From assembly GCF_020520425.1 (NCBI RefSeq), contig NC_079492.1, positions 146,165,861 to 146,229,860 on the forward strand: a DNA stretch of 64,000 nucleotides, written 5' to 3'. The translations under genes and the position numbers were made by a program. Position 1 is the stretch's first letter. Each line of letters begins with the position of its first letter. Positions 22,115 through 42,347 of this stretch are shown one piece after another. The notes under the pieces were generated by a model. It ran no database searches, was not told the DNA's origin, and worked only from the letters and a program-made list of their open reading frames with translations. This DNA comes from Spinacia oleracea (taxonomy: Eukaryota; Streptophyta; Magnoliopsida; Caryophyllales; Amaranthaceae).

Positions 22115-22196
22115 CAATACAAGCAATTCCACTTGCATGGACCCGGTCCACCATAAGATTACCATGGACCAGGGTAATTAGGCAATTTTAACAGTG

Positions 22197-22532
22197 AGTA
22201 AATTATAGAAACTGTAGTTCTGTAAAGTAACTATATCTCCAGAATAATAACTATGAACATAATAATGATAAGAGTAACTATTTTATCCAAAGAGTAACTA
22301 TATCATATAGAAAAGTAATTTTAACTGTAAAATAATTACTACTATATATTCATTCTTGCAGAAAAAAAAAGAGTAAATTATAGAAACTATAGGTTCTGTA
22401 AAGTAACTATATTTTCAGAATAGTAACTATGAAATAAATAATAATAATATAGTAATTTCGATGAGAACAATTATTCTATCCAAAGATTAACTATATTATA
22501 TAGAAAAATAACTTTAGCTGTAAAACAATTAC
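22197..22532. repeat. Tandem duplication inside element B (left arm)
   Basis: A block starting GAGTAAATTATAGAAACT, about 150-175 bp long, occurs at 22197-22345 and again at 22370-22532 with point changes and small indels. Both are made of AGTAACTAT-type words. Confidence 0.75.
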
Positions 22533-23607
22533 TATATTATAAAAATAAACAATATGATATAGATGGTTTAGAGGTCATATAGTATTTTTTTTATTATATA
22601 TCACATAATTACTGAAATATAAAAGAGTAACTATATCAAAAGTAACAGTAATTATAACTCTTGAACAATAATAAAGAAAACATTAACTACTTGGTTAGTT
22701 GTTTTAGCTACGACATTCTAATTCTTTGCATCTATAAATAAACCATGTTAAACTCAAATGTTTTTTGAACTAAAAAATACTAATCGACACGTTCACGTGG
22801 ACCCCGTCTCTTTTTTCCACCAACACATCATGTCCTTCCTCTACCACGTTCTTGGTTTCCATTGTTGTCAGGATTTTCTTCTTCTCCTCCTGCTTTTGTT
22901 TTCCTTGCAGAATTTATTCTTTGCACGATTTCAATTCTGGATGCATCATCTCTTGTATTTCCGAATCAATAATATTTAAACTAAGTTAATAATTTAACAT
23001 TTAAATATGAAAAACTAACATAGTAACTATGTAAAACGTGTAGTTTCTATTATGCATCATATAGTAAGTCTTACAATTAACGATGGTAAAATACTTGCAG
23101 AATTGCATATATAGTTATTGTTATTGTTATAGTCATATAGTTACTGTCAAAATAATATAGTCACTTTTATTAATAATAACACGGAGTACAAAGAAAGATC
23201 ATAAAATGAACATAATGATAAGATAATAACTATTAAAAATATATAGTTACTATTATACATGATATAGTAACTCTTAATATTAATGATAGTCATATACGAG
23301 CAAGGTTGTAGATATAGTTATTGTTATGATCATATAGTTGTTGTGATCATAACATAGTAACTCTTATTACTAATAACATGGAATACAACAAAGAACATGA
23401 AAAGAACATTATAACATACATAAAAAACTATACCAAACATATAGTTACTATAATACAAGATATAATACCTATAAATATTATTGATGGTCATTTAGTCACA
23501 GAGTTGCAGACATAGTTGATGTGATAATAATATAGTAACTCTATCCATAATACATTAACTATATCATTAAAAATATAGAATAACATAAAAACATGCACAT
23601 AACATAA

Positions 23608-23860
23608 TAAACTAACATAGTACCTATTTCAAAAATATAGTAACTATATAAAACGTACAATAACTATTAAAGAAAATAAACATATGGTAACAAGTCATGA
23701 TAAAATAAACATAATATCTATTTCAAACATATAGTAACTATATAAATAATATAGTAACTATTGAAGAAAATAAACATATGGTAACACATCATGATAAAAT
23801 AAACATAGTACCTATTTCAAACATATAGTAACTAATATAATAATATAGTAACTATTGTAC
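23608..23860. repeat. Triplicated unit inside element B next to the LINE
   Basis: A unit of about 85-90 bp containing ACCTATTTCAAACATATAG, AACTATTGAAGAAAATAAAC and TGGTAACA...TCATGATAAAATAAAC is repeated about three times up to the LINE insertion point. Confidence 0.7.
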
Positions 23861-23905
23861 ATAATAACTTTTTTACGTCATTAATCAACAATTATTGTTA
23901 GAGAG

Positions 23906-26174
23906 ATGTTAGAGAGAGAAGCTGGAGGTTTTCTCCCTCCAGCACAACACCAAACCGCCCTCACGGCACCACTACTCTTGACAGGGACCGAGCACTCCGA
24001 CCAGCAGCGCAACCAGGGGCGACCAAGAGCCAAGAGTCAACCTCCTCATCGGAACCAACATGCACCCACCAACACCACCACTTCCCGGAGCCCAACACAT
24101 CCATCCTTACCAACCACCCCCTACCAAATCATACCAAACAACGCTTCTGGACACTCAACCCACCCCATTCACCGCAACAGAACTTTCAAAGACATACTCA
24201 CATTAACAAAAACACCAACGACATCACCACTACCCCAAGGTACTCCCATAATCCCCATACCCAAAACACACTTCTCAAACCTACCGTTTGCCCTTAACCC
24301 ACCTCCACCATCTACCCTAGGGGCCGACCTATTCTTACCTCTCTCAAAGGAAAGGTATGAAGACATAACCTCACCATGGCTAGGTTCCATAATAGTAAAA
24401 GTCATAGGTAAGTCCTTTGAGAAGGATTACTTACGGAGGGAATTGCAAAAATTATGGAGAATTACGAAGAACATGGACCTCGTAGCATTGGGCAAGGGTT
24501 TTTATGCATTGCATGGGATTTCGCAGGAGATACGCTGCCATATTTTAGCCGATGGGCCATGGTTTGTCATGGGGGCACACTTGTGGGCACAAAATTGGGA
24601 ACCATCCTTCAGACCCTCAGAGGCAAAGATAGACACCGGACCGGTGTGGGTAACATTACCTGAGTTGCCACTGGAATTTTACGAAAAGTCAATGTTAGAG
24701 GACATTGGTCAACAATTGGGAACAGTTGTTAAGATTGATACACACACTTTGAAAGGGGAAGCAAGGAGATTTGCTAACATCTGTGTGCTTATTTCTAAGG
24801 AAAACACACCGGCAAGGGGCATTTGGCTAGGGAAATCTTACCAAAAAATTCAATACTCCAGTGGTGTGTGGTTCTGTAAACACTGCAATCAGTTTGGGCA
24901 TGCACATGACACGTGTCCGTTGGGAATTCCTCCGACCACAACCGCTCACAAAGTTAGTCAAACTAATGAAGATGGAAGGACCGGAGTTTGGAAAGTAATT
25001 AGCAAAAGAGGTAAGGAGATTAGGGCTAATCCAGAAAAGCAAGAAAATATGTTAAATAAAAAGTGGGCCCCAAAGGAAACAGTACAGCCGCCTCCTACAG
25101 GAAAAGAAACACATGGGGAAAGCAAAGAAATCTTAAGTACTGTGCACGAAGAGTTTGTACCTGGGGAACATATCTTTAACCCCTTCTCTATACTCGGGTC
25201 CCTTGAATCTAGCGATTCGGAAGATGAGGAACTCCCTTCCCCCACCCCAAAGAGGACACGTACCCCCCCCCCCTTTGCAGAAACAACACTCTACCACTGC
25301 CATCACCTTACCTACACACTCGAGTATCTCGTCATCCAAGGTTAAAACTCACACAACCCCCTTATCTCCCTCTTTAAACCAACCAAAAAACCTTTCACCT
25401 TCCCAAGAACCCCTTGGAAACATACATGATGGAAAACCACCACTCACCCATATCTTCCGTCGGAAGTGCATCCTCAACAACACTCTCATCCTCCCCACCG
25501 AGAGCCACACTCATGAATCCTGACGAGACTCTTCTCCTCAACAGGACAGCCCTACCCCTCAAACCAGAAATAAACCTCCTCAACACCTTCTACCTCCTCC
25601 CATATCTGACCTACCTTCAAGAATTATCCCTCATGGAAGTGAAGAAGTTGATCCTACACCCGAACTTAGCCCCACCAGAGATAGACAATCTCTTGATGTA
25701 TACGGGGGGGGACGAGGATTTCGAACTAGCCCATCTACCCCAATTATACGACGCCGATCACCTTCCGCCGGTAATGGAAGTATTCATGACTTGGTTACTC
25801 GAGAAAGAGGTCGTAGTCGAACAAGAGGAACTAAATCTACTTCACAACCTGGGCCCGTGGCTGGACCCGTACTCGCTGCTCCCGAAGTGGAGGAAATTTG
25901 CACAACTACGGCATGCACCGATCGAGGTGGTAGCAACATGCAACACAAATGCTCTGATGTCCATCGATATACTCCCCATGCTCAAACAGATCTCCTTTCA
26001 AGTGAATTGGGAAGGGGTAAAAGGAAGAAGAAACTTGCGAGTAACAAGGGTCAAGGCCATCCCTCGGAGGCAGACCTGGTTGTGCCCACTAACTCACGAA
26101 GAAATCGATCCGTGGGGGGGAGAGCAAACAGAAAAAGTCAGGGCGATGAAGCGCCTACCACAACTGCCGTTTAA
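23906..26174 (+). pseudogene. LINE ORF1: DUF4283 / zinc-knuckle nucleic-acid-binding protein, broken
   Basis: ORF1 proteins of plant L1 elements coat the RNA. The first frame (23906 to about 25260) gives a Pro/Thr-rich leader, a DUF4283 domain (roughly residues 150-310, with WLGSIIVKVIGKSF, LADGPWFVMG and WVTLPELPLEFY) and one CCHC knuckle, FCKHCNQFGHAHDTCP. At a run of C (25265-25273) the frame shifts by one, and the rest of ORF1 reads in the third frame through a Ser/Pro/Thr-rich region, one TGA at 25521-25523, and a basic tail (RERGRSRTRG, NRRNRSVGGRANRK written in part) to TAA at 26172-26174. The ORF2 start codon follows at 26176. A homopolymer slip plus one nonsense change explains everything; sequencing error in the C run is an alternative. 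Confidence 0.85.
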
Positions 26175-26175
26175 T

Positions 26176-29100
26176 ATGTCTATCATCTACTTGAATGCAA
26201 GGGGAATTGGGAGAAAATCTTTCAACCCAAATTTTCGTCACCTACTAGCCTTTCACAATCCCGATTTGGTCATCATCTCAGAAACCCAAGCGGGCCGGTC
26301 TAAAACAGCCCAAATCGTCGCCAACCTACCCTTTGACTCTTGGCATTTGGTCGAACCGGAGGGTGTTGCTGGTGGCATTCTCCTAATGTGGAAGTCTAGC
26401 CGCATCAACGTCCACATTGTTAGCGAGAATCGTCAAGGAGTGCATGGTCTCATCGAGGTAATACTTTCAAATATTTCTTTTGTTATGTCCGCAATCTATG
26501 CAAGCACTGATTTTAGTTTGAGGAAAAATTTGTGGTCTAATTTGGTCGACATTGCTGCTAATGTGAATTTGCCATGGATTGTTATTGGTGATTTTAACGA
26601 AATTTTGTGTAAGTCTGAGAAATGGGGTGGGAGACCTTTGAACAGGAAAAGAGCTACCTTATTTGCAGATACGATGAACACTTGTAACCTTACTGATCTG
26701 GGGTATAATGGGTCAAAGTTCACATGGACCAATAAAAGGAAGGAGGATCCCATACATGAAAGACTAGACCGGGGGTGGGGTAACTCTTTGTGGACGAATT
26801 TGTTTCCCAACTCATCCATTTGGCACTTACCACGAATTACCTCCGACCACTGTCCCATCCTTTTAAAACTTGACTCCACCCCTCCGTCTGGAGGCACCAA
26901 GCCTTTCCGTTTTGAACCAATGTGGATGACAAACCTAAACTATCACACTCTCATTAATCAGGTCTGGCCTTGTGGGGAGGGGGGGATTTTGGGAAAACTT
27001 AAAGCTATGAGCGATCATTTAGTGCAATGAAATAAAGAAATCTTTGGTAATGTGTATGCGAGGAAAAAGAGAGTTCTAGCTAGGTTAAAAGGGGCGCAAG
27101 AATGTCTAGATAATAACCCGATTTCGAAATTTCATCAAAACTTAGTGTCTAGCCTCCAGGACGAGTTTTTGTTAATTTTGGAACAAGAAGAGAGCCTTTG
27201 GTTAATGAAAAGTAGGGCAGATTGGGTGGTGAATGGAGAGCGTAACACAAGCTTTTTTCATAGATCAGTCCAGGTTAGAAGACAGAGAGGTAGGATTAGA
27301 TGTCTAAAAAATGATATGGGTGAAGAGATTAGCGACCCCAACGATTTGGTAGACCATATTAGGGAATTCTATGTTACTCTTTACTCTTCAAGCCAAGCGG
27401 ATTGTAGTATCATTAGCCCCCACTCACAGGGAAGTGTGGTTCTGGCGAACCCACCTTCAGACCAGGAGGTCAAACAAGCCCTTTTTGCTATGAAACCCCT
27501 TAAGGCCCCGGGTCCAGATGGGTTCCATCCCACTTTTTTCCAACATTCATGGGAAACATTAGGAGGGGACGTGTGTTCCGAAATTAGGAGTTGGTTCACC
27601 AAAGGTCATGTCCCACCAACACTTTGTCATGCCCTAATATGCTTAATCCCTAAACAAGATAACCCGGAAACGGTGAAACAATTACTACCAATAAGTCTAT
27701 GCAATACTATGTATAAGTTGGTCACCAAAATTCTTGTGAATAGGATGAAACCATACTTGTCTAGTTGGATTAGTGACACTCAAAACAGCTTTATTAAGGG
27801 GAGGGGGCCTGACATCAACCTTGTGGTGGCATCCGAAGTCCTACATAGCATGAATAAAATGAAAGGAGATGTGGGTTGGTTTGCACTCAAGGTGGACTTG
27901 GAAAAAGCCTATGACCGTCTAGAGTGGAGTTTTATTCGTAGTTGTCTTATTAATCTTGACTTGGATGATCATACGGTGACCCTAATCATGGATTGCATTT
28001 GTAGCGCATCCTCCTCGATCCTTGTCAATGGAGGTAAAACCCCTCCTTTCACCCATTCAAGAGGGCTAAGACAAGGCGACCCAATGTCACCATATATCTT
28101 TAATATTTGCCTAGACACGCTGTCCCAAATGATCTTTAAAGCTTGCGATAACAAACACTGGAAACCCTTTGTCGTAGGAAGGAAAAAAGTCCAAGTGTCA
28201 CACCTCCTCTTTGCGGATGATCTCTTGTTATTTGGGAGGGTTGATGATTCTACGGCGTGTACCCTAAGGGAGGTACTTGATGACTTTTGTGCAATGTCGG
28301 GGCAAAAGGTTAATGATGCCAAGAGTCGACTTATCTTTTCAAAAAACACTCATAGTGACCATAAAAAACAATTCCAAGACACCATCAATGTTCATGAAAG
28401 TAAGAGTCTAGGTATGTATCTAGGAATGCCCATCTCCCACAAAAAGCCAACTCGTAGCAATGTCCAATTTTTGGTAGAAAAGGTGAGGAAAAAGCTAGCT
28501 ACGTGGAAAGCCAGTTGCCTGACTAGAGCAGGGAGATTATGACTAATCAAGTCCACCTTAAACACCATTCCTAATTACTACATGCAAGCTAACTACTTCC
28601 CTAAAGCGACATTGGCAGACCTAGACAAAATCAGCAATGATTTCCTTTGGGGGGATAGGGAAAATAGCAAGAAAATACACCTCGTAGGAAAGGCTAACAC
28701 GTTCAAACCAAAAGACCAAGGGGGTTTGGGCATTAGAGCACATGATACTCTAAACATGATCTCCATGGCTAAGCTAGGTTGGAAGTTGTGTCACGGGAGG
28801 GATACGTTGGCCACTAAGTGCATCCAGTCAAAGTATGTTCATAAAAATCATGTCACTAAATTCTCTAATGGGTCTCCCTTGTGGAAAAGTGTAGGGAAGG
28901 GGTGGGGTTTTTTTGCCTCAAATTGTGTATGGGAGGTAGGGAGTGGGGAAAGCGTTGCCCTATGGTCTGACAAGTGGGTGGGGAGATCCTCTCTTAGAGC
29001 TTTAATACATGAGCCGCTAAACCAAGGGGAAGAGGAATGGAAGTTAGCCACTTGTATTAACTCCAATGGTTGGATCTTTGATCGCATCTCCTTTCATCTC

Positions 29101-30237
29101 CCTCAAACTATCCTTGATCGAATCTATAGCCTTCCAAGTCCAAATCAGTGTAGCCAGGATAAACCGTCATCCCTCTTTGTTGAGGCCAATCGTTTCTCCT
29201 TGGCCCATGCATATAACGTAGCCACCCACTCCAACAACCAAACATCTGTAGCCTGGTTGTGGAAGGCTCGTATTCCACCCAAGTACGCTGTGTTTATGTG
29301 GCTTGCTTGGTGGGATCGCCTACCCCACAAAAAACTCCTAGCTATAAGACAAGTCATACAAGACCCCTTTTGTTCTCACTGCCATGACCGGGTGGAAGAT
29401 ACCTTACACATACTTAGAGATTGTGTCCAGGCGAACCAAGTGTGGAATTACTTCCAGCTTCCTGTTGATTTCTGGTTGAAAGAACCGAAACAGTGGTTGC
29501 AGTCAAACTTCTTGTGGGGGGGTAGCTACAAGGGGATAGGGTGGGACCTCCTTTTTCCATATACCTGCTTTGAACTTTGGAAGCAAAGAAATAGACATGT
29601 GTTTGAGAACACTCCCTATGACCCCCCGAATATAACCATCACAAAAGCTAGCAACCTTGCCATGGAATACCTTAAGTTCCACCCCCATAGCGTGCACCCA
29701 CCAAAGGTATGGTCGAGTAATGGTGACATTTCCCCTCCTTTTAGGAACAATATCCATGTGAACGTAGACGCATCCTTTATTCACCATGATACCCCATCTA
29801 GTATTGCAGGTGTGTTTCGTGATTCTGCAGGTAATTGGGTGCTCGGCTTCTCGAAATTGGTTTACGCCGTCTCCCCCTCACATGCGGAGCTGCTAGGTAT
29901 TCGGGAGGCTTTGGAGGTGGCTAAGTCAAAATGGAATAGTATCACTATTATCACTGACTGCTTGCGTGCAGCCAAAGCGCTTAAGAACCAAGGACTACAA
30001 ACTAACTGCCTGTCGAACACCTATCTTATGTGCAGGGAGTTGCAGGAGGCGTTTACAACCGTTGAGTACATGTTCGTGCCAAGGAAAGACAACGTAGTAG
30101 CGGATAGTTTAGCTAAGCGGAGTAGGAAGGATAACCTTGTAGTGAATGTAACTAGGATGTTTCCCCACCCCCCTAGTTATTGTTTAGATGATTTGCTTTT
30201 GGATTGTAATAGGCTCTATGCCTCTAACTCAACTTAA
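26176..30237 (+). pseudogene. LINE ORF2: endonuclease, reverse transcriptase, zf-RVT, RNase H; two in-frame TGA codons
   Basis: ORF2 nicks target DNA and reverse-transcribes the element RNA. It starts MSIIYLNARGIGRK one base after the ORF1 stop codon. In order: an APE-like endonuclease (26176 to about 26880, with ISETQ, VIGDFNEI and SDHCPILL); reverse transcriptase (about 27450-28300, with LKAPGPDGFHP, KVDLEKAYDRLEW, GLRQGDPMSPYIF and the catalytic FADDLLLF); a zf-RVT segment (about 29250-29350, WKARIPPKYAVFMWLAWWDR); and RNase H (about 29755-30130, with NVDASF, HAELLGIREAL, ITDCLRAAKAL and DNVVADSLAKR). The frame is continuous except for TGA at 27028-27030, where the family normally has Trp before NKEIFGNV, and TGA at 28540-28542 in the AGRL-LIKSTL block. 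The catalytic residues are all present, so decay is slight. Confidence 0.93.
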
Positions 30238-30329
30238 GTAATGTTTGTGCTCCTCAGTTTACCAAAAAAAAAAAAAAAAACTATTGTACACATATAGTAA
30301 CCATTATAATCACACAACAACTAGCTTAA

Positions 30330-31740
30330 CATATAGTGATTATTATTATAATATAGTAACTATTGTACAAATATAGTAACCATTATAATCATATAGTCAC
30401 TATCTAAGAAGCAGACAAAAATATACTCGAAATAACATACTTCCTCCATTCTTTATTAAATGACACAATTTTTTTGTCACGTTTGCCAATGCAATATTTC
30501 AACCATTAATACCTTTTATTATCAATGGTTAAAAATTATAAAAGTTTGATATTATAAAACTATAGGATGAGACGATTATAACAAGACCCCACATGACTAT
30601 ATTTTTTGTTACGTATAAATCACAATTGATGGTAAAAGTATATTATATGAATAGTGCCAAAAGTACAATTGTGTCATTTAAAAAAGAATGGAGGAAGTAT
30701 TACATAATGTAATCGTATAGTAACTATTATTTATCAAAAAGTCACTATAAACTGTTCTTAACATAGTAACTATCTTAAACACATAGTTATTGTTTTAAAT
30801 TTATAATAACTTTCTAAAAAATATAGTAACTATTTTAAACACATAGTTACTGTTTTAAAGTTATAGTAACTTTTTAAAAAATATAGTTACTCTAAAAACT
30901 ACTACTAACATAAACACAATGAATATTCCAATGACTATTAAAAACATTATTTCGCAACATAAATTAAAGGTAACTATATCATTTATATACTAACTATATG
31001 AAACACTAACCCTAATTTCACCCAAACAACAAACACTATTTCTATCTCTTGTGCTTTGCTGCATCAATTCTTAAAGTTCACAGCCTTTGTCTCTTTTTTC
31101 CTAAATTTAAGGCATTATTTTTTCTTATACAAATGATATTGTAAAGTATTTTTGGAGATTCGTCACTAGATAGTGCAACTTTAGGACCTGGAATAACATG
31201 TGATTGATACTTCGTATTATTTTCTTTTACAAATATCAAATATATAGTAACTATATAAACCATATAGTAACTATATAAACCATATAGTAACTATATAAAA
31301 CATATAGTGACTATTATTAAAATATAGTAACTATTGAACACATATAGTAACCATTATAATCATATAGTCACTATCTAAGAAGCGGACAAATACATACTCT
31401 AAATAACATAGTACATAATGTAATCGTATAGTAACTATTATTTATCAGAAAGTCACTATAAACTGTTCATAACAGAATAACTATCTTAAACACATAGTTA
31501 CTGTTTTAAACTTATAATAACTTTCTAAAAAATATAGCGACTATTTTAAACACATAGTTACTGTTTTAAAGTTATAGTAACTTTTAAAAAAAAGTATAGT
31601 TACTCTAAAAACTACTACTAACATAAACACAACGAACATTCTAGTGACTATTAAAAACACTAATTTAAATTAAAGGTGACTATATCATTTATATACTAAC
31701 TATGTGAAACACTAACCCTAATTTCAACAAAACAACAAAC
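30330..31740. repeat. Segmental duplication inside element B (right arm)
   Basis: The block 30330-31030 and the block 31300-31740 are diverged copies: both contain CACTATCTAAGAAGC, AACTGTTC, ACATAGTTACTGTTTTAAA and end in AACACTAACCCTAATTTCA. The first copy holds a Stowaway MITE (30440-30697) that the second lacks, giving a natural related empty site near 31410. Confidence 0.85.
30440..30697. mobile_element. Stowaway MITE inside element B
   Basis: Ends CTTCCTCCATTCTTTATTAA and its complement, flanked by TA at 30438-30439 and 30698-30699. The paralogous position near 31410 lacks it and reads ACATAGTACATAATG, against ACATA-TTACATAATG around the insertion (one base differs). Confidence 0.92.
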
Positions 31741-32160
31741 ATTTCGAATCACTCAACAAAATAATAACTATTGTACACATATAGTAACCATTAAAATAAT
31801 ATAGTAACTATTGTACACATATAGTAACCATTAAAATTACATAGTACCTCTTTAAACCATATAGTTACTGTATTACTCATATAGTTACTATTTAAAATCG
31901 TGAAGTCACTGATCGAATTCGCGAAGTGAAAACGATACTTCGGTAAAACACAAACATTAATTTCTTCAAAACAACAAATATTTTCAATTTTAAATAAAAA
32001 TATTAAAATTCTTTAAAAAACAACAAACCGAGATGTGATCTCTAAAAATTCTTGTGAAGATTTGTAGGCGAGCGCAAATTCTTCGATTCGATTTCGACAA
32101 CGATGAACCTCCTTCTTGATCTACTACTTCCTCCAATTTTTCCTCATCAAATAGATCTAA
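31078..32160 (-). other. Exon-like islands in element B, possible captured or decayed gene
   Basis: Two short stretches differ from the motif-rich filler. About 31210-31078 (minus) reads QSHVIPGPKVALSSDESP and on to a Lys/Arg-rich end. About 32160-32040 (minus) reads DLFDEEKLEEVVDQEGG followed by Ser/Arg-rich sequence. A Glu/Lys-rich stretch on the minus strand near 22900-22760 may be a third. They may be remnants of the element's own gene or a captured host gene. I recognise no family and cannot join them. Confidence 0.3.
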
Positions 32161-32525
32161 TCATAAGAATTATAAGATAATTACGAAAAAAATCGAACAA
32201 AACCTAGAAATTTGGGCTAAATTTTGAAAAGCATAGAGAGAAAATGAAAGAGAATGAACAGAATGTAGATCTGAAATTTTGAAAAATAAAAAAGTTTCAA
32301 ACGTATATAAAGTGGGCTAGACACAAATCGCATTAAAACTCTTCAAAACACATAGTAACTCTTTAAAACACATAGTTACTGTAATACGCATATAGTTATT
32401 ATTTAAAATTACAAAATAACTGTCACGTGACAGTTACATATGTTACCCATAAAAATTACTCTGTTGCCCTGGTCCACGCTAAGTTAGCATGGACCAGGTT
32501 TATATTAGTGTAAATACAATACAAG

Positions 32526-33546: not shown

Positions 33547-34290
33547 TTAGTAATTCCATAAAAAGGGATCTGCCGGCTGATGATCATTGACGTTTACCGG
33601 TGGCTCACCAGATTCCGGTAGCCGCCGCCAATGTAGCGAGTGCCCGAATTCAATGACATTCTCAAGGTCAAGGAAGAGATCGGGCAAGTTGAAGAATATG
33701 TTGTCGTCGAAAGTATGATCAAAACTAGACGATGAAGCCGATGATGACGTGTCATAGTTGGATGGTGATGACGTGGTTGTGGTTGTGGTTGCTAGGGAGT
33801 CGGCTTGGTTTAATGGCTCGGCTTGTGAGTTGGGAGAATCTAATGCTAATGCGGCTTTATTAGCCGCAACTTGAATATCTTTTGGAGAAGTGCTGGCCGG
33901 TTTGGGTAGTTGATGGGCTAACTCGGGGAAATTTAGGTATGCATTCGGGCCCTTGATGGCTAAAGCCGCCACATCATGGGCTCGAGCTGCCATCTCAGCT
34001 GTGGCGAATGTCCCTAGCCATATCCTAGATTTTTTCCTTGGTTCGCGGATTTCTGACACCCATTTACCCCAATTCCTCATCCTTACACCCCTATAAGTAG
34101 GGTGTTTTCCTTCAAAATTTCTTGTACACTTCTTTTTTTGATCATCATTATCGCAATTTTTCTCTTCACTCGGCCTTTTCGTATTAATTTTGATGGCGGT
34201 GGTGGTGGTGGTGGCGGAGGAGGAAGAAGAGGAGGAGGGAGAGGTGGTTTGGTGATCACAATATGAAGTGATAAAGGATGCTTCTTCCAT
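33547..34290 (-). CDS. DREB-subfamily AP2/ERF transcription factor, 247 aa, intronless
   Basis: A single AP2 domain at about residues 64-121 ([19 protein letters not shown], then [23 protein letters not shown] and YLNFPEL) binds DRE/CRT-type GCCGAC promoter sites in the nucleus. Val77 and Glu82, the two residues that separate DREB from ERF factors, are both present. [19 protein letters not shown] is typical of the DREB A-4 (TINY-like, ERF group III) branch. The N-terminus is low complexity (Ser run at 18-24, Thr run at 26-30) with Lys-rich stretches near 50-53 that could serve for import. The C-terminal half is acidic and Ser-rich, ending DPFLWNY, a plausible activation region. No intron, as usual for this family. 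The start is the first ATG after two in-frame-free TATA candidates. The exact orthologue is not assigned. Confidence 0.93.
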
Positions 34291-37687: not shown

Positions 37688-40600
37688 CTCCCCCCTCAAG
37701 CTGGACCTTGGATAAGAGACCAAGCTTGGCAGATAATGAGTGGTGTTGAGAAGAAGGGAGAGGTTTGGTAAGCAAATCTGCTAACTGCTGAGAACTAGGA
37801 ACATGAGAAGTGTTGATGAAGCCAGCTTCCACCTGTTCTCTGATGTAATGCATTTCTCGTTTGAGATGTTTAGTTTTGTCATGATAAACTGGATTATGTG
37901 CAAGATGTTCAGCTGATGTATTATCACAGTAAAGAGTAACAGGCAGCTGAATATGAACTTGAAGATCTTCCAATAAGCCTTGTATCCAAACCAGTTCACT
38001 AGCAGTTGCAGACATGCTTCTGTATTCTGCTTCAGCAGAAGATTTGCTCAAACTCTTTTGCTTTTTAGTTTTCCAAGATATCAGATTAGAACCAAGGAAA
38101 ACAGCATAGGCACTAAGTGATCTGCTGCTGTATTGACAAGAACTTCAGTCAGCATCACTGTAAGCTGAGATTTGCAAGTCAGAACTGGAAGAGTACCATA
38201 AGCCATTGTCCAAAGTTCCTTTGAGATATTTAAGAACATGAAGAGCAGCACGCAAGTGAGGTATTCTTGGAGAGTGTACAAACTGACTTAAATGTTGAGC
38301 ACAGTAAGACAAGTTTGGTCTTGTGATGCCCAAGTACAACAATCTTCCAACAAGCCTTCTGTAAACATCTAGTTCTTCTAGTAGATCACCAGCTTCAGTG
38401 GATAATTTCAATCCACAGGACAAAGGAGCAGGAGCAGTTTCACAGTCAAGCATACCAGCATCAGCAAGTATATCAGTGATATATTTTCTTTGAGAAAGAA
38501 AAATACCTTTGTCAGTTCTGTGAATTTCAATCCCCAAGAAATAGGCCAACTGACCTAGATCTTTGATTGTGAATGCCTTATCCAAAGCAGTCTTGACTTC
38601 TTGCATTTGAGTTAATGATGTTCCAGTCAACAGAATATCATCAACATAGACTAAGAGAACCAGAAATTCTCCATCTAGATTTCTTGTGAATAGAGAGTAA
38701 TCTTGTGTTGATTGCTGAAATTTCAACACTTTCAGAAACTTGCTAAGCTCCTTGTTCCATTGTCTGGAAACTTGTTTCAAGCCATAAAGAGACCTTTTAA
38801 GTCTGCAAACCTCACCTGGTTTTGCTTTGGTGTAACCAGCAGGTGGTTTCATGTACACCTGTTCATCCAGAAATCCATGCAAAAAAGCATTATTCACATC
38901 CAATTGACACAAATTCCAACCCTTAACAGCTGCTAAGGCAATAACAATTCTTACTGTAGCCAGTTTAGCAACAGGAGAGAAAGTTTGTGTGAAATCCTTG
39001 CCCTCAATTTGTTGATAACCAATAGCTACCAATCTGGCTTTGTACTTGTCTATGGAGTAATCTGGATTCAGTTTTGTTCTGTACACCCACTTGGAGCCTA
39101 TTGCCTTTTTGTCCTTAGGTAACAAGGTTAAATCCCAAGTATCATTGCTCTCAAGAGCAATTATTTCTTTCTCCATGGCTTGTATCCAATTAGTATCATC
39201 TTTAGCTTGATGATAGGTTTTGGGATCATTGGAAGAAAGACTTACAGAAAAGGCAAGAGAATCCCAAATATCATAACTGTCCAAAGCCAGATTTAATAAC
39301 CAACTATCATCATCAAAATTATCTGTTTCTGTAGGAATAGAAGAATCAACAGAAAAAGAAAGAGAATCACTAGTCTGTGGTTCTGGTTCATCTCTGTGTG
39401 GAACATAGCTTCCAACAAAATTTTTTAAGACAACAGGAGGTTTGATAGGTCTTGTAGATTTCCTTTGAACAGGAATGGCACTCTGATTAGGAACAAGAGG
39501 AAGGTGAGAATGAGTAGAGGAATCAGAAGTAATAGAAGTAGGCATAGATTGTGAAGAATTAGGAGAAGTGGTCTGTATGTAAGGAGTAGAAGAAGTAGGA
39601 GGAGAAAGATGATTAATGTCATTTGGTGAAGTTAGGGAAATATGGGGTGAAGAATTTAGAGTAGGAGTGGATATAGTGGAAGAAGAAGTGTTTAAGATTG
39701 GTGTTTGACAAGAATTAGTGCTTAGATCAATCATAGGAAGAGAAGTAATCATTGGAATATCAGATACAGATGCTAGTTTGTAAGGAAAAACAGTCTCAAA
39801 GAATATTACATCCCTTGAAACAAACACTTTGTGTGTGTCAAGATCATATAATTTAAAAGCTTTACATCCAGCAGGATACCCAATGAACAAACACCTTTTA
39901 GTTCTTGAGTCAAATTTGTCTCTCTGAATGTGAGAATTGTGAACAAAACACAGAGAGCCAAAAACTCTGAGATTTTCATAAGCAGGAGGAGTATTAAACA
40001 TGATCTCAAAAGGAGTTTTCCCATTTAAGACTTTGGAAGGGATTTTGTTGATCAAATGAGTAGCAGTGAGAACACACTCTCCCCAGAATTTCTTAGGGAG
40101 ACTTGCATGAAATCTTAGGGCTCTAGCAATTTCCAGCAAGCTTCTATGTTTTCTCTCAACTCTACCATTCTGTTGAGGAACATAAGGCACACTTCTTTCA
40201 TGTAAAATGCCCTTGCTGGAAAACATGTTTCTACAAGATTCTTTGATTATTTCAGTGCCATTATCAGTTCTAATTTTCTTCACTAGTTGATTAAACTGAG
40301 TTTGAACCATAAAGAGGAATTCAGAGATGATTTTCTGAACTTGCAACTTATTATAAATCAGATAAGTCCAAGTTATTCTGCTATGGTCATCAACTATAGT
40401 TAAGAAATAAGAAGCTCCATCTAAATTTCTGACTCTGTATGAACCCCAAAGATCAATGTGAATCAGATCAAAACATGCAGCAGCTCTACTGTGACTCACA
40501 GAAAAAGGAAATTTATGCTGTTTGGCACTATAACAGATATCACAGTTGTATTCATTGATTCATTTGCAACATTCAGCATTCACAAATTTCATTTTTGACA

Positions 40601-42347
40601 GAGAAGGGTGACCCAATCTAGCATGTAACAAATCCAGAGTATTTCTAGCATCATCCTTAGTCTTAGAAATACTAGTGGAAGTTTTATTTGGAAATCTCAT
40701 CATATGTACATCAACCATACTATCAACTGTATTGCAGCTAGGTAACTGAGAACTATTACCTTGACAGATATCAACTGGAGTTTTGACAAAATAGTAGAGT
40801 CCATTTGTCCTTTTTCCTGCACCAAGTATCTTGGAATTAGAGGGGTCCTGGAAAATGTATCCAGTTTTGGTAAATGTCACTAGGATTCCAGTATGTTCAA
40901 TCAATCTCCCAACAGACAGTAAATTATGCCTAAAACCTTTCACTAGTAGCACATTATGTAAGACCAAATCATCACTGAGGACATTATCACCAATTTTCTC
41001 AACTGTCATCTGAGTTCCATCAGGCAAACCAACTTTGATAGGCTGAATAAGAACTCTTATGTTGGTCAAAATATTTTCATCAAAGGTCATATGATCACAA
41101 GCAACAGAATCAACAATCCATAAATGATCATGACTTAATTCAGTTGTAGTGCAGTTAAAAGAATGAGAAATAGTACCTGCATAGTTAGCATAAGAGCAAC
41201 TTGCTGCAGGAGTATTTGCATTCTGAGATTGTTGTCCTTTCATCACCTTCATGACTTCTTGACAAATGGCATTAAGCATTGCACTGTTAACCAAACCATT
41301 GTCTGCAGCTGTATTATCAAGAGGATCATCACCAGCATCAGTTGCAGAATTTACATTAGCAGCAAATCTAGTGTTGCTTGAGTTACTTCCTTTAGAAGCC
41401 TTGATAGAATTGTACCAATCAGGATAACCAATTATCTTGAAACATTGTTCTGCAGTATGACCTTTCCCTTTGCAATGAGTACAAAACCTATTCAACTTTT
41501 CTTTCTTAATCTCTTTCCAATCTTTCTTTCCATGATTTCCATCATTCTTCTGGACCTGATTGCCTTTGTAAAACTGTGCAGCCATGGCACTGCTATTTAG
41601 AATGTTATGCTCAACAACAGCATTACTCACTTCCTTCTGTTTTTCAATCTGCTGAGTAATTGAAAACACTCTATTCAAATTAGGCATAGGATCCATAGCT
41701 AACACATTAGTGATGGTACTGTCAAAACCTCCATTCAAACCAAGCAAGAACTTCATCATTTTGTCCTCTTCTTCGAACTCAGCCACTTTCTTTAAAAATT
41801 GACAACTACATGTCAACATAACACCACAAGTACAAGTAGGAAAGGCTCTTAGAGTCTGCATCTCATCCCACAACTTCTTCAGTTTACTGTAATATGACAC
41901 TATAGTCATATTTTCTTGAGTCAAATTCTCTATTTCCTTCTTTAATTCATAAATCAATGGACCATTAGACTGTCCAAATCTTTCAGCCAATTCAAGCCAT
42001 AGGTCAGCAGCATTATCAATATAGCCAAAATCATCAGCTAAATCATGATTCATAGAGCTTAAAATCCAGCTTACTACCATAAAATCAGCTCGTTTCCACT
42101 TCAAGTAATCCTTATGATTAACAGTAGGTTTAAGCAATTCACCATTAATGAAACCTTCCTTATTCTTAGCTATTAGAGCTCTTTTAACATTCCTACTCCA
42201 TCGAACAAAATTCGCACCAGTAAAAGGAACAGCAACTAAACTAGAAGTAGGATTGTCTGAGTTTGCTATGAAATAAGGATCAAAATTATTGTTGTTACCT
42301 TCAGAATTTAATTGAGAACCTTCACTTTCAGTGTTTCCAATCGCCAT
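37683..42347 (-). pseudogene. Copia gag-pol polyprotein, one frame, two premature TGA codons
   Basis: Starts at MAIGNTESEG (42347) and stays in one frame to the 3' LTR. Gag has the family block FTGANFVRWSRNVKRAL and a zinc knuckle (CTHCKGKGHTAEQC). The protease motif reads WIVDSVACDHM, where the usual DSGA-type motif has Gly in place of Val, which may harm the active site. A GAG-pre-integrase block (LLHARLGHPSLSKMKF) comes before the first stop, TGA at 40559-40557. Then come integrase (HIDLWG, IRTDNGTE, GRVERKHR), reverse transcriptase (LVYVDDILLTG) and RNase H. The second stop, TGA at 38144-38142, falls after SDAD where the family has Trp. RNase H then continues (SKSSAEAEYRSM, YCDNTSAEHLAHNP) to the end near 37683. 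Otherwise undamaged. Confidence 0.93.

Follow-up and report, generated by a model that had tools for sequence, protein, structure and literature searches.

A non-coding Mutator-like element of spinach filled with a phased near-palindromic motif, a candidate array of target sites for a VANC-like anti-silencing protein

The element and its borders

The stretch analysed here, referred to as the window, comprises 64,000 nucleotides of spinach (Spinacia oleracea) DNA from assembly GCF_020520425.1 (contig NC_079492.1, positions 146,165,861 to 146,229,860 of the forward strand). It harbours a transposable element whose interior is crowded with copies of one short word. An earlier inspection of the bare letters (hereafter the sequence-only reading) had described a 10.4-kb element with a perfect 9-bp flanking duplication, imperfect and palindromic inverted ends of about 33 bp, and about 3.9 kb of non-nested interior. 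The borders were placed exactly (Table 1), and the target site duplication (TSD), CAATACAAG, is exact on both sides and absent from both strands of the rest of the window. The size required revision. A long interspersed nuclear element (LINE) and a miniature inverted-repeat transposable element (MITE) are later insertions that stretched an element of 3.7 kb to 10.4 kb, and the non-nested interior is likewise 3.7 kb rather than 3.9 kb. When the flanks of the two inserts are joined, the sequence runs uninterrupted over both junctions in 19/19 other copies.

The inverted ends are as palindromic as had been described, forming a 33/32-bp imperfect inverted repeat, CCYGGTCCA...TGGACCAGGG, of which each arm is itself a palindrome. 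The repeat begins 18 bp inward of both borders, and the terminal 18 bp on either side show no inversion. Folding of the right end (67 nt) was better than that of all 200 shuffled sequences (z = -5.0), while that of the left end was weaker (z = -2.2, with 5 of 200 shuffles equally good). A search of Rfam at gathering thresholds gave no match.

A young non-coding family

The genome searched was an 894-Mb assembly of 242 contigs, with the window and nearly all matches located on six large contigs. As limited numbers of candidates were scored, all genome-wide match counts are lower bounds. The left 295 bp of the element retrieved 40 full-length matches of 97–100% identity, window copy included (40 scored of 625 candidates), and a degenerate right-end pattern, which may include subfamilies, matched 201 times against none for its control. 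Twenty copies were fetched; in 19 the retrieved sequence included both ends, and in one it lacked the right end. As the sequence-only reading had anticipated, all 19 both-ended copies share the ends and carry 9-bp TSDs, 16 of them exact (one of these is poly-A and uninformative) and three with one mismatch. The 16 copies of simple length (3,678–3,876 bp) and the window copy are 97.6–99.9% alike and lie about 1% from their consensus. Two longer copies, L036 (9,059 bp) and L027 (5,141 bp), hold other insertions, and L039 is a copy of a diverged subfamily. No open frame of 90 codons was present in four of five copies tested; the fifth holds a large insert. Changes of C>T or G>A, normalised to the number of C or G, run at five to six times the rate of transitions at A/T, and do so in CG, CHG and CHH contexts. 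This excess may reflect past methylation of the copies, with other causes possible. The window family is a young, multi-copy, non-coding Mutator-like element (MULE) of about 3.7 kb with a 9-bp target duplication.

The motif and its 20-bp phase

Exact copies of the word, ATAGTAACTAT or ATAGTTACTAT, number 19 in the 3,713 non-nested base pairs, compared with a mean of 0.045 in 200 first-order simulations with the dinucleotide frequencies of the element. Allowing one mismatch the figures are 56 against 0.77, and allowing two mismatches 81 against 8.5, confirming that the word is enriched and is not a general property of AT-rich DNA. All 19 exact copies of ATAGTAACTAT in the window lie within the element. 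Genome-wide, 10,572 exact matches were found as against 702 for the identical pattern read backwards, which served as the control; the exact matches are strongly clustered among the 100 listed. The word is dense, as had been reported, but its apparent occurrence in both orientations is mostly due to its being a near-palindrome, ATAGTWACTAT, in which orientation comes down to the centre base.

The sites are regularly spaced. In the family consensus, 45 of the 79 distances between neighbouring sites are exactly 20 bp. Genome-wide, 1,148 exact pairs are 20 bp apart, while 65 and 76 are found at 11–19 bp and 21–29 bp (together 141), and the control gave no pair at any of these distances. The 9-bp spacers of 20-bp neighbours agree at 4.27 of nine positions, near the 3.80 expected by chance (45 pairs). 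As the phase persists between neighbours with such unlike spacers, duplication can explain the order only in part.

A coding relative with two convergent genes

Clusters of the motif led to the locus L045, and a protein piece from L045 to two further loci, L046 and L047 (150 scored of 237 candidates). The latter two are spanned by one end-to-end coding element of 11,131 bp (C4:46002312-46013442). Its left end is 93.9% identical to that of the non-coding family over 66 bp, and its right end is of like type. Its TSD matches at eight of nine positions, which is weak evidence alone because the sequence is AT-rich. In addition, part of the array DNA of the non-coding family is 86–88% identical to intron DNA of L045 and L046. 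The gene models described below are predictions, with exons assigned and spliced by us from the sequence.

The first gene, read from the left end, encodes a transposase with a FAR1 domain (7.5e-15) and a MULE transposase domain (PF10551, E = 4.6e-13). A larger relative with the same ends and a MURA-type transposase had been expected; the relative exists, at 11.1 kb, and carries a MULE transposase, albeit one of FAR1 type. The second gene has multiple exons and is read from the right end, convergent with the first. One of its exons resembles the PMD (0.0013) and DUF1985 (0.023) profiles, both below cut-off, and its later exons match Peptidase_C48, the Ulp1 catalytic domain (1.2e-6; 29.0 bits against a curated cut-off of 20.7). 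For the Ulp1-like part, a sequence search of the PDB gave a best match of only E = 0.16. In the 11,131-bp copy the second gene is interrupted by stops, and in other matches the conserved portions of the two convergent genes lie in open frames of 402 and 369 codons.

The pairing of the two genes recurs in the genome. The transposase yielded 118 matches (116 of 1,470 candidates scored), some of them two pieces of one copy, of which 91 have at least 80% identity. A second-gene match lies within 35 kb of 79 of these 91, convergent in all 79, and within the same distance of six of the remaining 27, again always convergent. By comparison, a neighbour of this kind is present at only 1.06% of 20,000 positions drawn at random. 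Within the coding element, the motif is confined almost wholly to non-coding DNA: none of 65 sites with up to one mismatch falls in an assigned exon (25 expected by length), and two of 133 do so with up to two mismatches (51 expected). This avoidance arises in part because the exons are less AT-rich (36% against 26% G+C).

Two other candidates for a coding relative were set aside. A coding MULE beside a right end at C3:25.56 Mb is a separate MULE next to an ordinary copy, and the element does not include the MULE that adjoins the second gene at C4:46.0 Mb.

The motif changes with the second gene

Four paralogous families of the second gene, at 78%, 54%, 44% and 41% identity, were compared over about 1 kb on the upstream side of the conserved exon. 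Both ATAGTWACTAT and its phase are kept in relatives that share 84% and 78% identity with the second gene of L045, the 78% family showing 19 sites with up to one mismatch. The family at 44% identity has no ATAGTWACTAT and is instead full of words like GTTAAAGTTAA, often 21 bp apart. Genome-wide, exact pairs of GTTAAAGTTAA at 21 bp, the only spacing searched, number 247 against none for their control. Among the matches listed, GTTAAAGTTAA arrays lie within 2.5 kb of 14 of the 17 second-gene matches below 50% identity, of none of four at 50–64% and of none of 35 at 65% or above. Conversely, ATAGTWACTAT arrays lie near six of eight second-gene matches of at least 65% identity, near neither the single match at 50–64% nor the single one below 50%, a comparison limited to ten listed matches. 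Seen from the arrays, 14 of 21 GTTAAAGTTAA clusters have a second-gene match below 50% identity within 15 kb, and all four second-gene matches on the initial 17.3 Mb of contig 1 lie within 2 kb of a listed ATAGTWACTAT site. No transposase match was found within 30 kb of eight second-gene matches below 50% identity that were checked.

The second-gene family associated with GTTAAAGTTAA, exemplified by L050, has 14 matches of equal score and a 332-codon frame, and GTTAAAGTTAA-like words, often at 21-bp spacing, occur in its introns.

Genome matches to the Pfam DUF1985 profile (148 of 149 compared, one on a small contig being omitted) proved to be a separate set: none lies within 40 kb of the 100 right ends listed or the 40 left ends, and none within 20 kb of second-gene matches. 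Eight of these loci, above the cut-off of the profile (L001–L008), contain no ATAGTAACTAT, even with one mismatch. At seven of the eight, the commonest 8-mer is present in 6–9 copies in 3.3 kb, compared with a maximum of 4–5 in 200 shuffles, possibly marking other motif systems.

Features of the window

Table 1. Features of the element, its nested insertions and its surroundings, in window positions
Feature	Positions	Strand	Remark
Left TSD	22115–22123	.	CAATACAAG
Whole non-autonomous MULE copy	22124–32516	+	Nested insertions included
Left subterminal palindrome / inverted repeat	22142–22174	+	
Left motif arrays	22205–23855	.	ATAGTWACTAT, mostly in 20-bp phase; motif-free gap of about 0.37 kb within
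LINE target duplication	23850–23861 and 30279–30290		AACTATTGTACA, 12 bp
Nested LINE	23862–30278	+	Foreign to the element; open reading frames judged LINE-type by eye, no family search
Middle motif array	30291–30403	.	LINE on one side, MITE on the other
Nested MITE	30440–30697	.	Foreign to the element; TA duplication; Stowaway-like, from its ends
Right motif arrays	30717–31891	.	
Right subterminal motif triplet	32352–32402	.	Spacing 20 bp
Right subterminal palindrome / inverted repeat	32467–32498	-	
Right TSD	32517–32525	.	CAATACAAG
AP2/ERF-type open reading frame	33547–34290	-	DREB-like, by eye, no family search
Two long open reading frames	38145–42347	-	Ty1-copia type retrotransposon, by eye

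A right subterminal stretch, 32030–32330, is free of the motif and does not appear among the top listed matches to the coding relatives L045–L047. The AP2/ERF-type open reading frame lies 1.0 kb beyond the element's right end, with its 3' side toward the element.

Relation to known systems

The sequence-only reading had considered En/Spm, hAT and Mutator elements and knew of no named family of this description. Of the three, only the Mutator type is needed. MULE target duplications measure 8–11 bp (PMC6446971, accessible parts), and the 9-bp TSDs of the window copy and of 19/19 others, together with the MULE transposase domain encoded by a relative whose ends match, place the family among the MULEs and rule out an En/Spm, hAT or satellite origin. 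Furthermore, systems of similar design have been described: in the accessible parts of PMC5735166, the protein VANC21 binds arrays of YAGTATTAY in the introns, intergenic and terminal non-coding parts of the Arabidopsis MULE VANDAL21. There, VANC causes loss of methylation, the density of the motif matters, the motif of VANC6 differs from that of VANC21, and VANC proteins bear DUF1985. Motif-guided anti-silencing has been demonstrated for VANDAL elements of Arabidopsis. VANCs carrying Ulp1 also exist and are reported to act likewise (PMC13317346, in part).

The spinach system resembles VANDAL21/VANC21, as far as the available text of PMC5735166 goes, in being a MULE, possibly in second-gene proteins with DUF1985 (the spinach match being below the cut-off), in dense arrays of a short motif in intronic, intergenic and terminal non-coding DNA, in a motif that varies between paralogous families, and in arrays that evolve through tandem duplication. 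The near-absence of sites from assigned exons (0/65 and 2/133) and the change of motif with the second protein, for which ATAGTWACTAT could be checked at ten matches only, are the patterns of a VANC-type array. The outer 18 bp without inversion and the subterminal 33/32-bp repeat also agree with the short, degenerate or absent terminal inverted repeats (TIRs) of VANDALs. Unlike VANDAL21, however, the spinach transposase has a FAR1 domain at its N-terminus, where none is listed for the VANDAL group; the motif is ATAGTWACTAT at a 20-bp phase; and a non-coding 3.7-kb family has been amplified.

Two other groups share parts of this anatomy. KAONASHI/KIU elements have an Ulp1 second gene opposite the transposase, and motif-directed anti-silencing is reported for them in the accessible text of PMC13317346; the Peptidase_C48 match above the cut-off, on exons spliced by us, agrees with this KIU subtype. 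They are, though, non-TIR MULEs of Arabidopsis with another motif and, according to the available parts of PMC2528002, a mudrA-type transposase. The N-terminal FAR1 domain followed by a MULE domain is the arrangement of the Jittery group, in which FAR1 stands at the transposase N-terminus (PMC6446971, in part). Jittery-like MULEs of grapevine and melon combine a Jittery-type transposase with an ULP gene, with no mention of motif arrays or anti-silencing in the accessible parts of PMC2528002. The TSD of the Jittery group is given, in an incomplete listing, as 8 bp or not at all, compared with 9 bp in the spinach family.

A target array for a VANC-like protein?

Taken together, we consider it likely, by analogy with VANDAL elements, that the window element is a non-autonomous MULE whose body offers an array of target sites to a VANC-like anti-silencing protein. 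The window family is probably mobilised in trans by its coding MULE relatives, whose ends match its own. The second gene would encode a VANC-like DNA-binding anti-silencing factor that binds ATAGTWACTAT cooperatively, with sites about two helical turns apart presented on one face of the DNA, and that would strip methylation from any element bearing a dense phased array. A non-coding copy that retains its ends and arrays would then possess all it needs to be un-silenced and to move.

Various observations weigh against this proposal. The motifs of VANC21 run in one orientation (PMC5735166, accessible parts), whereas the spinach site is a near-palindrome. The DUF1985/PMD match of the second gene lies below Pfam's cut-off, and the gene itself is our prediction, made from sequence alone with no transcripts. 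Second-gene families at 54% and 41% identity show no array in the 1.1 kb examined, and 3 of the 17 listed second-gene matches below 50% have no GTTAAAGTTAA array. Further, the transposase may diverge together with the second gene, so that the switch of motif does not by itself identify the binder. The phase is weaker over the coding element's left half, where 17 of 27 pair distances deviate by no more than 2 bp from a multiple of 20 (6.8 expected). Neighbouring spacers resemble each other less than spacers 40 bp apart do (5.0 of nine positions for the latter against 3.80 by chance; 29 pairs), and duplication of larger units has made part of the 20-bp order. Finally, among 17 non-coding copies the motif columns are no less variable than the rest (0.020 against 0.018). 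Current selection on the sites is thus not in evidence, and the idea of purifying selection on them is unsupported.

An unlikely alternative, though the strongest of the rivals, is that the FAR1-type transposase itself binds the arrays, its sites having spread inward from the ends across the non-coding body. En/Spm elements carry subterminal motif repeats bound by their transposase and offer a precedent. The spinach transposase does have a FAR1 DNA-binding domain, and the sites are retained in an abundance of non-coding copies. We rate this explanation lower because the arrays extend beyond subterminal DNA, into introns kilobases from the ends and other non-coding parts, and because the ends carry a different conserved sequence, the palindrome, which looks like the better candidate for a transposase site. 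The motif switch also follows the second gene, although the transposase may switch as well. The transposase-binding word proposed in the sequence-only reading keeps some probability while fitting the data less well than VANC-like target arrays.

The same reading had offered a slippage-prone unit that spread through the element. In this form, which we find still less probable, an AT-rich 20-bp unit slips and duplicates in unselected non-coding parts and no protein reads it. Tandem units of 20, 40, 60, 94 and 176 bp in the arrays, the likeness of spacers 40 bp apart and motif columns as variable as any others are all in keeping with neutral minisatellite expansion, which contributed part of the order. 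Yet core and phase persist where adjacent spacers match only near chance, the motif and phase are retained next to second genes that have diverged to 84% and 78% identity, in a paralogous family another word recurs at a nearly equal period, and exons are free or nearly free of sites. Slippage or duplication does not account for the fixed phase of poorly matching neighbours, nor for a motif change that tracks the second gene.

That the arrays act instead through RNA, for example as sources of 24-nt small interfering RNAs (siRNAs) silencing the coding family in trans, is highly improbable in spite of the numerous non-coding copies, the fast change at C/G as in methylated DNA and the targeting of VANDAL non-coding regions by RNA-directed DNA methylation (PMC10398659, in part), since siRNA production needs neither a fixed helical phase nor near-palindromic sites. 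A small-RNA role may well hold alongside a VANC-like target array.

Implications

Among the papers listed on MULEs, VANDAL, VANC or anti-silencing in spinach, Caryophyllales and Amaranthaceae, titles and abstract openings did not reveal this family, and publications containing ATAGTAACTAT, judged in the same way, included none on plant transposons. A study of eudicot VANC systems by Sasaki et al. (2022, EMBO J) reportedly covers helical periodicity, gains and losses of Ulp1 and DUF1985, and non-autonomous VANDALs, and may overlap with the present observations.

A broader proposal follows, for which we see the case as evenly balanced on the sequence evidence. Outside the VANDAL clade, a lineage of FAR1-type MULEs would have its own sequence-specific anti-silencing, directed by a near-palindromic site at a fixed phase of two helical turns (20–21 bp). 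At least two mutually exclusive pairs of motif and protein would exist in one genome, and a non-coding derivative, its whole body a target array, would have spread by exploiting both the anti-silencing protein and the transposase. If true, a FAR1-type MULE with VANDAL-like anatomy in a distant eudicot would mean that this strategy either arose more than once or passes from one MULE lineage to another. Together with the two motif/protein families within one genome, the 20-bp phase would allow DNA reading by such proteins to be tested cleanly, and might yield a sequence-specific tool for the removal of methylation.

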